Shown: piece after piece, positions 129 to 8,850 of the stretch
Layout: each line of letters opens with the position of its first letter
How positions within the stretch are numbered: position 1 is the first letter of the stretch
Source of the DNA: JBFLXN01 sp040755715 [NCBI: Candidatus Edwardsbacteria bacterium]
GTDB taxonomy: Bacteria; Edwardsbacteria; AC1; JBFLXN01
Assembly (NCBI GenBank): GCA_040755715.1
Contig: JBFLXN010000117.1
Coordinates: 1-8,850, forward strand
Length of the DNA stretch: 8,850 nucleotides
Direction: 5' to 3'
Translations under genes and position numbers: made by a program
Notes under the pieces: model-generated
Databases searched by the model: none
What the model was told of the DNA's origin: nothing
The model's input: the letters and a program-made list of their open reading frames with translations, nothing else

Positions 129-875
129 TTGAATAGAGGTGCCACTATCTTTCGGCACGCTTTTGCAAATACTAATGTTATAGATATAGGTTTCCTTTCC
201 TCTAAAACATCAGAAACAGCCCATATTTTCCCTCTTTACCTTTATCAAAAGAAAGACAATCCTAAAAAACATTCTTTTAGAAGTCTTATGATGCTTTTTG
301 AAACGCAGGCAAAATATCAAACAAGAACTCCAAATCTCAATAAAGAATTTGTTAATAAAATTGAGTTAACATATAAGAGAAAAATTTTACCAGAACAAAT
401 CTTTTATTATATCTATGCAGTGCTTTATTCAAACATTTATCGCAAAAAATATGCTGAGTTTCTAAAGATAGATTTTCCCAGAGTGCCTTTGACTGATAGA
501 TACGAACTATTTCAAGCACTTACTAAGCTCGGGGAGGGACTCGTTTCGTTACATCTTTTGAAATCTCCATTGTTAAATGAAACAAAAGCGAAATATCCGA
601 TAGCGGGAAATGACAAAGTGGAAAAAGTCCAATATGAAGCAAAAACAGGCAAAATTTATATTAACCAGAAGCAGTTTTTTGAAGGCATTCCTGAAGGTGT
701 CTGGCAATATCAAATCGGTGGTTATCAGGTTTTAGATAAATGGCTCAAAGACCGACAAGACCGCACCTTGTTAGCCGAGGAGATTGAGCACTATCTCAAG
801 GTGATTACCACGATTAAGCACACGCTCAAATTGCAAAAGAAAATAGACAGATTATATGCTGAGCTAGAAAAGTAG
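129..875 (+). pseudogene. C-terminal remnant of a type ISP (type IIG-like) restriction-modification enzyme
   Basis: The 248-residue product resembles only the last quarter of large single-chain restriction-modification proteins (helicase-nuclease plus N6-adenine methylase plus target recognition domain). Recognisable family signatures are FPLYLY (residues 34-39), PEQIFYYIYAVLYS (88-101), the YAEFLKIDFPRVPLT stretch (108-122), and GVWQYQIGGYQVLDKWLKDR (190-209). This part normally contributes DNA target recognition. No helicase or methylase motif (such as NPPY) is present here, and an in-frame stop lies at 114-116, so the catalytic parts are missing. The only usable start is a TTG at 129 without a Shine-Dalgarno sequence, which fits a decaying fragment. 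The last codons overlap the ribosome binding site of hldA, so it is probably co-transcribed with it. Alternatively it could be a stand-alone specificity-like protein. The homology call is from recognised motifs, and the loss of function is inferred. Confidence 0.72.
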
Positions 876-3255: not shown

Positions 3256-4731
3256 ATGGCACAATTAGATACCTTTTTCAAAGCGATGATTCAATATAAG
3301 GCAGAGGAACTCCATCTGATTTCTGAAGCGGAACCGGTTTTTAAGACACCAGCCGGGATGCAACCAGTTTCTAAACAGAAATTTTCCACGCAAGAAATAA
3401 TGGGACTCCTCTTTGAAGTTATGCCGCCAGAAAAGCGAGAGCTTCTCATGTCTCAACCAACAGTAGATTTCATCTATCAATCACCAGGGGTTGGAGAATT
3501 TCAAGGAATTGTCAACAAAGAAGGGCATAATCTGATGGCTATCTTCGCACCGGCCATAACTAAGGCACCGTCTTCAGCACCACTTAAAGCAGGTGCGGAG
3601 GAGTCTGGATATAAGTTAACTACCACTGACAAGGTCCACGAAATTGATAAATTTCTGCACCTCCTTTGCGAAAATAAAGGCTCAGATTTACATTTGAGCA
3701 CTGGAGAAAAACCTATCATCCGGGTTGACGGAGACATCAAACGGTTGGAAGAATTTCCTATTTTGCAACCACAGGATACTGAGCGGTTAATCTTTGAAAT
3801 CGTCCCCAAACGCTACCTTGAACAATTTCAAGAAAGACATGATACTGATTTTGCTTATGAAATTTCAGGACTGGCTCGCTTCCGCTGCAATGTCTTTATG
3901 GACCGCAAAGGAGTAGGTGGCGTCTTCCGGGTCATTCCCACGAAAGTCGTGACCGTAGAAGACCTCGCGCTATCTCTGGCCATCCAAAATCTCTGCTTTC
4001 TGCCTAAAGGATTAGTTTTAGTCACTGGACCTACTGGTAGTGGAAAATCAACTACGCTCTGCGCCTTACTTGACCTTATCAATCGTAATAGGTCAGACCA
4101 TGTTATTACCATTGAAGACCCTATTGAGTTCGTCCATGAAAACAAAAAATGTTTAATCAATCAAAGAGAAATTGGAGCTCACACCGATTCATTCAAGAAT
4201 GCTTTAAGAGCGGCTTTGCGAGAAGACCCAAACATTGTTTTGGTCGGTGAAATGCGTGACTTGGAAACTATTTCCATCGCTTTGGAAACAGCGGAGACTG
4301 GCCATCTGGTCTTTGCTACACTTCATACTTCTACGGCCCCAACAACCATTGATAGAATCATTGACCAATTCCCGGCGGACAAACAAGAACAAATTCGGGT
4401 GATGCTCTCTGAGTCTCTAAAAGGAGTGCTCTCGCAAACTTTGTGCAAACGAATTGGCGGTGGCCGAATAGCCGCAATGGAAGTAATGCTCGGTATTCCG
4501 GCAGTTGCTAATCTCATCCGGGAAGGAAAGACTTACCAGCTGCCCTCAATCATTCAGACCAATCGCAAAATTGGGATGATTACGCTCAACGATGCTTTGA
4601 TGGAACTGGTGAACAAGAAGATTGTTGAGCCGAAAGAAGCTTATGCAAAGGCAATTGACAAGGCAGATATTTTAAATCAGTTAAAGAGAGATGGATATAA
4701 CACAAGATTTGTGGAAGAGACAGTTTCTTAA
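3256..4731 (+). CDS. pilT: PilT-like type IV pilus retraction ATPase with duplicated N-terminal domain
   Basis: This is a hexameric cytoplasmic secretion ATPase of the PilT/GspE family that powers pilus retraction at the inner-membrane pilus base. Residues about 128-491 form a complete PilT: an amino-terminal PAS-like domain (GSDLHLSTGEKPIIRVDGD, 142-160), Walker A GPTGSGKST (258-266, Lys264), Asp box TIEDPIEF (285-292), Walker B NIVLVGEMRD (326-335), His box TGHLVFATLHT (348-358), and the PilT-type retraction motif AVANLIREGK (416-425, AIRNLIRE in the family). Residues about 1-98 repeat the amino-terminal domain in degenerate form (LDTFFKAM, EELHLISEAEPVFKT, LLFEVMPPEKRELL, VDFIYQSPGVGEFQ), and a Pro/Ala-rich linker (99-120) joins them. 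Typical PilT is about 350 residues, so the 491 here is explained by this extra domain. The start follows GGGAGG at 5 bp. PilU or another PilT paralogue is an alternative name. Confidence 0.92.
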   Translation: MAQLDTFFKAMIQYKAEELHLISEAEPVFKTPAGMQPVSKQKFSTQEIMGLLFEVMPPEKRELLMSQPTVDFIYQSPGVGEFQGIVNKEGHNLMAIFAPAITKAPSSAPLKAGAEESGYKLTTTDKVHEIDKFLHLLCENKGSDLHLSTGEKPIIRVDGDIKRLEEFPILQPQDTERLIFEIVPKRYLEQFQERHDTDFAYEISGLARFRCNVFMDRKGVGGVFRVIPTKVVTVEDLALSLAIQNLCFLPKGLVLVTGPTGSGKSTTLCALLDLINRNRSDHVITIEDPIEFVHENKKCLINQREIGAHTDSFKNALRAALREDPNIVLVGEMRDLETISIALETAETGHLVFATLHTSTAPTTIDRIIDQFPADKQEQIRVMLSESLKGVLSQTLCKRIGGGRIAAMEVMLGIPAVANLIREGKTYQLPSIIQTNRKIGMITLNDALMELVNKKIVEPKEAYAKAIDKADILNQLKRDGYNTRFVEETVS

Positions 4732-6728: not shown

Positions 6729-8198
6729 TTATTTAACCACCACCAACTTGCCGGCTGATTTTAGTCCGCCGCCGAAAATTAGGTAGAAATAAACTCCTGG
6801 AGAAACACTCACGCCTCTTTGATTTCTGCCATCCCAATGTAAGATATATTCTCCCTGACCTTTAATTCCATCATTCAAAACCCTTAACTTTTGACCGCAG
6901 ATGTTATAAATAGAAACACTAACTTTCACCGGTTTTTTTAAATTAGCCAGGCGATAACCAATTTTAAAATTCCGTCCTGGATTAGGCCAACTGAAGGAAT
7001 AAATAGCTGGCTTTAGTCCAGACTCGCTGGAACTCTGTAATTCTTCCACACCTAATGCTTCATAACTTACTTTTCTGGCATAAATATCCCAGGTCTGTGA
7101 TGTATCCCTTAAATCCTGCCAGGTGGCGAAAATTTCTTTTCCACAACTTGCTAGTCTTACACTCTCACGGTATCTCTCTCCTATTCCTGAAGAACTGCTG
7201 ATTCTAAGATTTCCTCCATCAGGTTGATTGCAGTTTTGATATCGTTGACAGTAGTTATCCACCCAATCTCTTTCGTCAGTCCAACCGATAACAAACTTGT
7301 TGTCAGAAACAGCAGTTACTGTGCAGTGCCCACCCCAGATAAGTGTATCTTCATTTACTACCGTATTGAGAGCCCCCACTGCTGTGCCAGTAGAATCAAA
7401 GAATTGGGCCATAATAGCCACGCCAGTAATGGTTGCTCTGGTCCAAGCGATGCAGTAATTATTGGAATCATTAACCGCTATCGCTGGCTGGGCATAATCT
7501 AAGTTTAGCGCTCGTGCATTAACTCTATCCGAAGGTCCGGACGGAGTGGTGTTAGCGTCAAATCTACGCCAGTAGATATTTCCATCATCGCTCTGCCAGA
7601 CTATGGCAAAACTGCCATCAGAACGCATAGCAATCTTAGGGTCCATACCGAAGAGATCTGAAAGCAAAATATCACTGCCAAGTGGAATGCCATTAGCCAG
7701 AAATCTCCGACCATAAATTCGCCAGCCATTTCTAAAATCCATCCAGACTACGGTGAAGTTTCCATTGTTATCCGCCGCGGCAGACGGGCAATAGCAGTAA
7801 CTCAAAATGTCATTTATTTGAAATGCAGAAGAGAGGGAATCACCATTTAGGTTAAATCTCTGAGCAAGTATATTCCATCTTCCATTATAATCCTCTATCC
7901 ACACTCCTAGCCACATTGAATCACTAAGCGAGCATAAGGCAGGCAAGGTTTGATAGGAATCTGATGATAATCTTTTATTAGTTCCCAATGGTGTCTCAGC
8001 GGTATCATAACACTGAATAAAAATGAAGGAACTATCATCAAATTCCTCTTGCCATCCCACGATAAAACCGTTATGGTTGACAGCGATTTCTGGGTAACCC
8101 TGCCAGCGATCACTCGTATCTGTATTAACTCGGATATCAGCGAAAGCGGCCGTGCCGACCAAAATCATCTCTAAAGAGTTCAAAAATATTCTCTTCAT
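6729..8198 (-). CDS. Secreted protein with seven tryptophan-marked repeats and a C-terminal FlgD/Por-like sorting domain
   Basis: The 489-residue product begins MKRIFLNSLEMILVGTAAFA, a signal peptide with likely cleavage after Ala20. This start (ATG at 8196-8198) is preferred over an upstream in-frame ATG at 8265-8267 because GAGGA (8206-8210) precedes it by 7 bp. The longer form would overlap the pilin gene and bury the signal peptide. Seven repeats of about 50 residues follow, each with a pattern like PxIAxxxxGxFxVxW, marked by Trp49, 100, 152, 201, 252, 306 and 360. Most continue with an xIYxxRF strand and a Gly-containing turn. This spacing suggests a seven-bladed beta-propeller. A carboxy-terminal domain (about 405-489; PNPGRNFKIGYRL, VSIYNICGQKLRVL, GQGEYILHWDGRN, SVSPGVYFYLI) is of the FlgD-Ig/type IX-sorting-like kind found on cell-surface proteins. 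Function is unknown; adhesion or binding is a guess. Confidence 0.88.
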   Translation of the reverse strand: MKRIFLNSLEMILVGTAAFADIRVNTDTSDRWQGYPEIAVNHNGFIVGWQEEFDDSSFIFIQCYDTAETPLGTNKRLSSDSYQTLPALCSLSDSMWLGVWIEDYNGRWNILAQRFNLNGDSLSSAFQINDILSYCYCPSAAADNNGNFTVVWMDFRNGWRIYGRRFLANGIPLGSDILLSDLFGMDPKIAMRSDGSFAIVWQSDDGNIYWRRFDANTTPSGPSDRVNARALNLDYAQPAIAVNDSNNYCIAWTRATITGVAIMAQFFDSTGTAVGALNTVVNEDTLIWGGHCTVTAVSDNKFVIGWTDERDWVDNYCQRYQNCNQPDGGNLRISSSSGIGERYRESVRLASCGKEIFATWQDLRDTSQTWDIYARKVSYEALGVEELQSSSESGLKPAIYSFSWPNPGRNFKIGYRLANLKKPVKVSVSIYNICGQKLRVLNDGIKGQGEYILHWDGRNQRGVSVSPGVYFYLIFGGGLKSAGKLVVVK

Positions 8199-8211
8199 TA
8201 CATAGTCCTCT

Positions 8212-8820
8212 TTAATTTTTAGTCTTCTTTGCACTCTGAAGGATAAAGGCAATGGGTCTATACACACCCATACCAGTTATTTTATAGCTAAGGGCGGCTT
8301 CACCCTCTCCCACTGAATTTCCAGAAGTGTCAAAACCTTGCCAGTAGACACAACCGAATGGTTTTTTTGCCACTCCATTTCTAATGGCATGATTGTTGGG
8401 ATTAATAGGATTAGCAAAATCCACGGGAATCAAGGCCTCGGGAGGAAAAGGAGGCCTGGTGGCACCTGCAATTACGCTATTATTGGTAGAGGGTATACCT
8501 ATCTGAGCCAACACCTGAGCTACCGTTGTGTTAATGCCTCCGGGATAAAGTCCCTCAGCCATAGTGGAGAAATTTTCCCCTGCCAGTTGAACAGTGTGCA
8601 TATTGGCTTTAATGCTGGCTTCTTTAGCGTTCTCGCTAGACTTCACATATTGCGAGTAGCCAATTGTTGAAAGAACTCCTAACAATAATAGAGCTATCAA
8701 CAACTCCACTATACTAAAACCTTTTTGATTCTCCCGACAGATGTTGGCTATTGATTCACCCCGCAGTGCCCGGAGCACTAACTCAAATTTCTTCTCTGGT
8801 GAGCATTTACTTTGATACAT
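8212..8820 (-). CDS. Type IV prepilin with a transposase-like N-terminal leader (chimera)
   Basis: A class III prepilin signature is clear: cleavage/methylation site QKG|FSIVE (Gly34, Phe35), conserved Glu39 at mature position +5, and a hydrophobic helix to about residue 56. This is followed by the alpha1 segment with YVKSSENAKEASIKANMHTVQ. The mature part is about 168 residues, normal for a major or minor pilin, processed by PilD and assembled into the pilus or a pseudopilus. The first 30 residues (SPEKKFELVLRALRGE, then SIANICRE) instead match the opening helix-turn-helix of IS3-type transposase OrfA proteins, replacing the usual short basic leader. The ATG has a strong AAAGGAGGT 6 bp before it (8827-8835). 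The only alternative start inside the leader seen is a GTG at codon 15 (8776-8778) without a good ribosome binding site. The next gene starts 13 bp after its stop. Whether peptidase still processes such a leader is unknown. Confidence 0.88.
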   Translation of the reverse strand: MYQSKCSPEKKFELVLRALRGESIANICRENQKGFSIVELLIALLLLGVLSTIGYSQYVKSSENAKEASIKANMHTVQLAGENFSTMAEGLYPGGINTTVAQVLAQIGIPSTNNSVIAGATRPPFPPEALIPVDFANPINPNNHAIRNGVAKKPFGCVYWQGFDTSGNSVGEGEAALSYKITGMGVYRPIAFILQSAKKTKN

Positions 8821-8826
8821 GACTGG

Positions 8827-8835
8827 ACCTCCTTT
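8827..8835 (-). promoter_or_regulatory. Strong ribosome binding site of the prepilin gene
   Basis: On the minus strand AAAGGAGGT ends 6 bases before the ATG at 8820. It is near-perfect to anti-Shine-Dalgarno and fixes the start at the transposase-like leader, not at an internal codon. Confidence 0.85.
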
Positions 8836-8841
8836 CCATTA

Positions 8842-8847
8842 ATTATA
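8842..8847 (-). promoter_or_regulatory. Consensus -10 box TATAAT upstream of the prepilin operon
   Basis: Reading the minus strand, TGGTATAAT at 8850-8842 contains a perfect TATAAT with an upstream TG one base away, as in extended -10 promoters. A start point near 8835 would leave a leader of about 15 bases carrying the ribosome binding site. Any -35 element lies beyond the window end, so this is not fully supported. It may be the promoter that came with the transposase-like sequence. Confidence 0.45.
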
Positions 8848-8850
8848 CCA

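Follow-up and report, generated by a model that had tools for sequence, protein, structure and literature searches.

The locus examined here raises the question of how a type IV prepilin could come to begin with residues typical of an insertion sequence (IS) transposase, and whether such a beginning belongs to the genome or to its assembly. The window, meaning the whole stretch of 8,850 nucleotides that was analysed, carries on its reverse strand a 202-aa open reading frame that begins MYQSKCSPEKKFELVLRALRGESIANICRE and continues with NQKGFSIVELL. The features considered, with the evidence on which they rest, are the following:

8212..8820, (-): fusion ORF of 202 aa, an OrfA-type N-terminus followed by a type IV prepilin (sequence, Pfam, NCBIfam)
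8731..8820, (-): codons 1-30, IS3-type OrfA start, with homology extending to residue 32 (N-terminal search, OrfA profiles)
8724..8730, (-): probable junction of IS fragment and pilin, inferred from the end of the profile alignment at residue 32 and possible microhomology
8716..8721, (-): predicted prepilin peptidase cleavage site, Gly34 and Phe35 codons (N_methyl match, sequence, PMC4471445 rule)
8827..8833, (-): ribosome binding site AGGAGGT (sequence)
8842..8847, (-): TATAAT, -10-like, its -35 lying past the window end (sequence, comparison with IS copies)
6729..8198, (-): downstream gene for a secreted-type protein with an FlgD_ig/sorting-like C-terminus, below the Pfam cut-off (Pfam, comparison)

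The prepilin frame and its relatives

The original prediction placed a standard prepilin from residue 31 onward, and this was borne out by Pfam N_methyl on residues 31-54 (E 4.5e-7) and by TIGR02532 on residues 32-55 (27.8 bits, cut-off 16.3). The two profiles capture the prepilin trait of a leader-final Gly, a hydrophobic stretch and Glu5, and the pilin frame is unbroken for 172 residues with Gly-1 and Glu5 in place; PDB matches (to geopilin domain 1, E 0.002-0.008) were weak. Residue 34, with codon 8719-8721, is the cleavage Gly and closes a 34-residue leader with seven Lys/Arg and four Asp/Glu. The native pilin start codon is absent from the fusion ORF, and the sole other in-frame start 5' of the cleavage Gly is a GTG at codon 15, within the OrfA part. 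In the available part of PMC4471445, prepilin leaders are given as 6-26 residues, or about 15-30 for the Tfpb class, ranges that the 34 residues exceed; the same part of that source states that classes by leader length no longer hold, and we take length as a descriptive trait, not a defining one.

Of 147 searched genomes, all from the phylum of the WOR-3 MAG L001 (G001), 109 contain pilin relatives, and none of the relatives inspected carried an OrfA leader. A motif search of the loci gave 43 prepilin starts, some from outside the phylum, and in 41 of them the nearest in-frame start lies 3-14 residues ahead of the cleavage site; the motif missed L014 and L015, the closest relatives, and translation does not always begin at the nearest start. 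On this distribution, a long pilin leader conserved across the phylum was dropped as an explanation. Among the matches listed, some relatives reach query residues 5-20, several of them across stop codons; L038, the one inspected, has its nearest start 25 residues before the cleavage site and hence a 25-residue candidate leader, with no resemblance to OrfA by eye. Another of the 43, the prepilin-like frame of L026 (G084:C23), contains no ATG, GTG or TTG from the preceding stop down to the cleavage Gly, which may perhaps reflect another lost or displaced start.

The closest pilin among the matches listed is that of L014, with 48% identity over 148 residues, beginning at residue 52. Downstream of it lies a gene whose product is related to that of 6729-8198 (30% over 250 aa), and by reading, L015 has the same arrangement of pilin and downstream gene. 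Since this arrangement is kept at both loci, the pilin and the 6729-8198 gene look like an old pair to which the OrfA leader is new. The pilins of L014 (1501-2013) and L015 (1495-2025) themselves have KSPITLKE in place of Gly-Phe-x-x-x-Glu, so they may escape the prepilin peptidase.

Two further genes of the window were also considered. Positions 3256-4731 encode a PilT/T2SSE-type ATPase with an extra N-terminal region; most of its matches, among those listed, cover residue ~125 onward only, and among the best eight, those in G124 (from residue 125 only), G132, G016 and G019 (nearly full length) stand out. The ORF at 129-875 (+) covers a Type ISP restriction-modification enzyme in its C-terminal part only (Type_ISP_C, profile positions 128-336 of 342, E 3.8e-58), and an AT-rich stretch with a hairpin lies 5' of it; with only the C-terminal profile part present behind such a stretch, this gene looks 5'-truncated.

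Origin of the leader and its upstream signals

Searched apart from the pilin, residues 1-30 alone matched no family in NCBIfam and none in PHROGs, and the sole Pfam match of residues 1-34 was HTH_28 (E 0.17). A 32-residue N-terminal query against the 147 genomes gave 15 weak matches at an E limit of 1, spread over 14 genomes, the best with an E-value of 0.026; those at ranks 1, 2, 4 and 9 are IS3-type OrfA starts aligned in register, and the other 11 look like chance. With OrfA relatives gathered by means of the first OrfA from this query, a profile of 13 sequences, the window left out, gave residues 1-31 a score of 20.2 bits, which none of 5,000 shuffles reached (maximum 11.2), and across 2,184 frames the best non-OrfA-like one scored 6.8 bits. 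Because three of these OrfAs had been found via the window's own residues, they were taken out; against the remaining ten, themselves collected via one of the three, the window residues scored 17.3 bits, again above all 5,000 shuffles (maximum 10.9), and among 1,079 natural N-termini of fetched loci the top one not judged transposase-like scored 7.2 bits. The group is read as IS3-type because the reference OrfA L076 matches HTH_Tnp_1 (1.2e-12) and a fragment matching rve_3/rve_2 comes after the L081 OrfA. The OrfA N-terminal helix-turn-helix is accordingly represented in the window by a 5' fragment of about 31 residues. The window contains no OrfB, the part of such elements that carries the DDE integrase core and is joined to OrfA by frameshift. 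The expectation that residues 1-30 are an IS3-type OrfA start is upheld by the profiles and their shuffles, with the curated libraries leaving these residues unnamed, and an IS origin of the pilin leader is well supported.

The upstream region points the same way. Within the 30 bases 5' of the start codon (ATG, 8818-8820, reverse strand) stands TATAAT, 21 nt from the ATG, with AGGAGGT between them. Six of ten other OrfA copies compared have a TATAAT 20-30 nt 5' of their ATG, and in these six a hexamer matching TTGACA at 4-6 positions lies 17 nt above it; in L080, L081, L141 and L145 the best -10 chosen by the script is farther upstream, and near-matches at the usual distance are visible by eye. 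As regards the terminal inverted repeat of such an element, the window stops 30 bp 5' of the ATG, and the copies of G065 and G069 share 69-77 bp of identical sequence upstream of theirs. The transposase-type ribosome binding site and TATAAT that had been predicted therefore do resemble OrfA start regions, with similar spacing. As the sequence ends there, the -35 region is missing from the window, and a generic promoter scan of 8100-8850 on both strands, the -35 being absent, found no promoter; with the -35 box outside the window, the pilin gene may be driven by mobile-element signals, as had been proposed.

If residues 1-30 were instead a native long prepilin leader, alike to OrfA by accident and owing nothing to an IS, one would expect the silence of the curated libraries apart from HTH_28, and the 25-residue candidate leader of L038 would be a partial precedent. 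Against such an accident, neither the shuffles nor any N-terminus that is not transposase-like came near the profile score, and the upstream signals match OrfA genes too; we regard it as highly improbable.

Several further searches were uninformative. The DNA of 8715-8850 had no close IS copy in the 147 genomes, giving short, chance-like matches of which the best by E-value was 22 bp, and tblastn of the 32-residue N-terminus against plasmids gave no match. In IMG/VR, the fusion protein and an OrfA used as queries each returned 11 stretches, none confirmed; a peptide-derived pattern returned 11 stretches whose inspected frames included no transposase, and a second such pattern returned none. 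The OrfA profile had no match in three genomes from other groups, and it found three places in two of eight genomes of G002's phylum, all transposase-like frames without a host gene; the N-terminus query gave one weak match, also in a transposase-like frame, in 47 genomes of G149's phylum.

The junction and comparable fusions

The probable junction lies 121-127 bp from the window end, which is within one short read, and it was compared with the ends of related contigs. Sixteen contigs from four related MAGs end in or near orfA copies, and nine of them stop 140-141 bases past the point at which two copies diverge, as would a k-mer assembler with k ~141 at a repeat. The other seven stop elsewhere, four of G064 at 82-106 and three of G130 at 106-203 bases depending on the compared pair. 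A contig that ends k bases into a repeat is the normal outcome of a true junction, and the window end would fit a real boundary between unique and repeated DNA if the window is the whole contig and the assembler used k ~119-127.

A single chimeric read, with about 30 bases of pilin and about 120 of IS, could also have lengthened a low-coverage contig end, in which case the true leader would be short. The distance of less than one short read from junction to window end and the 41 of 43 related starts at 3-14 residues suit this account, and it keeps its weight because one chimeric read would put the contig end in a similar place. On the other side, the frame is open across the junction (one in three by chance), an end k bases into a repeat is what a true junction should give, and a second fusion, that of L090, lies about 1 kb inside its contig. 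We judge an artefact of this kind rather unlikely, and consider it probable that the junction is real genomic DNA formed from the 5' end of an IS. Counted against a real IS-derived junction are the absence of the fusion from any second pilin inspected, the silence of the curated libraries on the N-terminus, the lack of an IS DNA copy in the 147 genomes, the seven of 16 contigs off the 140-141 rule, and a leader beyond the reviewed range.

An OrfA-start profile search of the 147 genomes gave 51 places in 23 genomes, and all 51 frames were inspected. No prepilin with an OrfA start was among them, and only at L090 does a long non-transposase frame continue from an OrfA start; with this result, a lineage-wide fusion was dropped. 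Looking for the same fusion in relatives, as the original prediction had proposed, thus produced no second pilin and one comparable case with a secreted-type protein.

In L090 (G083:C90, WOR-3 phylum), OrfA codons 1-28 are joined in frame to YLLLFLIIVNLCIDAHGAN, by reading a signal-peptide core. The protein is 483 aa in total with an FlgD_ig C-terminus (27.3 bits, cut-off 27), TTGACA-17-TATAAT stands upstream of its OrfA start, and the fusion is about 1 kb from the end of a 12,107-base contig. Relatives of the protein occur in 130 of the 147 genomes, no more than 10 candidates per genome having been scored in most of them, and among the matches listed no other covers its first 23 residues. Like the window, L090 combines an OrfA start and an IS-type promoter in frame with an exported-type protein that lacks its own start. 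It differs in having a class I signal peptide (by eye) where the window has a prepilin leader, in using another OrfA subtype, and in lying about 1 kb inside its contig. That IS3 5' ends repeatedly become new starts for exported proteins in this phylum, with the window prepilin and L090 as the instances, seems unlikely at present.

Within contigs of related genomes, solo 5' remnants of OrfA elements are also present (L137, L138, L140, L143, L144, L149). Four of them (L137, L138, L140, L144) continue into short frames, none with a long host ORF behind it, and in L143 the frame has 71 aa and matches HTH_Tnp_1, with HTH_3 below threshold; the match at L128 is weak (E 0.066) and falls in the middle of a 501-aa frame. 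At L136 (G069:C49), an OrfA start is in frame with the apparent catalytic part of OrfB in a 266-aa frame, which from its sequence reads as an internal OrfA-OrfB deletion of the IS. In the contig-end loci L176 and L177 (G130:C4 and G130:C26), the OrfA copies seem to have lost an internal piece after codon ~36.

Proposed capture of the gene start and comparison with known systems

The reading that we favour is capture of an IS 5' end by deletion. An IS3-family element would have sat 5' of a type IV prepilin gene, and a deletion would have taken orfA from about codon 31 through the pilin start codon, leaving an in-frame joint. The IS would now provide the ribosome binding site, the start codon and the 34-residue leader, and probably the promoter as well. 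If the protein is made, the pilin helix would enter the membrane while the leader stays in the cytoplasm, and the prepilin peptidase would be predicted to cut after Gly34, following the general rule in the available part of PMC4471445. A cut at that position would leave the mature pilin unchanged; with the foreign residues ahead of the processing site, exported proteins would tolerate capture of an IS 5' end. Supporting capture are the OrfA homology, the OrfA-like upstream signals, the lost pilin start, an intact pilin with its conserved downstream partner, the OrfA 5' remnants in related genomes, the L090 fusion and the junction-to-end distance of 121-127 bp. The proposal of gene capture forming a new prepilin stands in part, as regards the OrfA leader, the lost start, the OrfA-like upstream signals and the inspected relatives without the leader; the genomic junction that it presupposes is probable.

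The same deletion may simply have killed the gene, the in-frame fusion then being an unselected relic carried by part of the population. Precedents exist in the four remnants that lead into short frames, the leader is longer than reported ones, and the window also holds the 5'-truncated restriction gene. Against this, the pilin has kept an open frame through 172 residues, its Gly-1 and Glu5, and its downstream partner, and we consider a dead gene unlikely. That the captured form is actually made and processed is put forward tentatively, as a possibility on the doubtful side.

On the broader and less likely reading that such captures recur in the phylum, they would swap promoter, ribosome binding site and leader and leave the mature protein untouched, since whatever precedes the processing site is lost. 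They would then offer transposases a near-neutral way to rewire the expression of surface proteins. IS elements are well-known suppliers of promoters; with a transposase N-terminus as translated leader, an IS could also replace the start codon and the leader. Exported proteins would be predicted to be over-represented among IS-fused genes, a count that public genomes allow, and L090 makes the general idea testable. A narrow search of the open-licence literature, in the parts available, returned no matching case of a transposase-host gene fusion, a result that does not prove absence.

The blaNDM product is an exported protein, as the window prepilin is predicted to be. In the available part of PMC8894482, blaNDM is described as having a possible chimeric start behind ISAba125, and like the window it would have had its first codons and upstream signals swapped via a mobile-element rearrangement. 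There, according to the same part of that source, the first six residues match aphA6 and not the IS transposase, the IS giving the promoter region, whereas in the window about 31 residues would come from OrfA itself. Type IV prepilins with long leaders, as described in the available part of PMC4471445, share with the window a Gly-ended leader, a hydrophobic helix and Glu5, and differ in that the window leader has 34 residues and appears to be of transposase origin. The possible chimeric NDM start is the nearest documented parallel that we found, judging from the available part of PMC8894482, and the window fusion is to be classed, as a variant, with mobile-element captures of gene starts.
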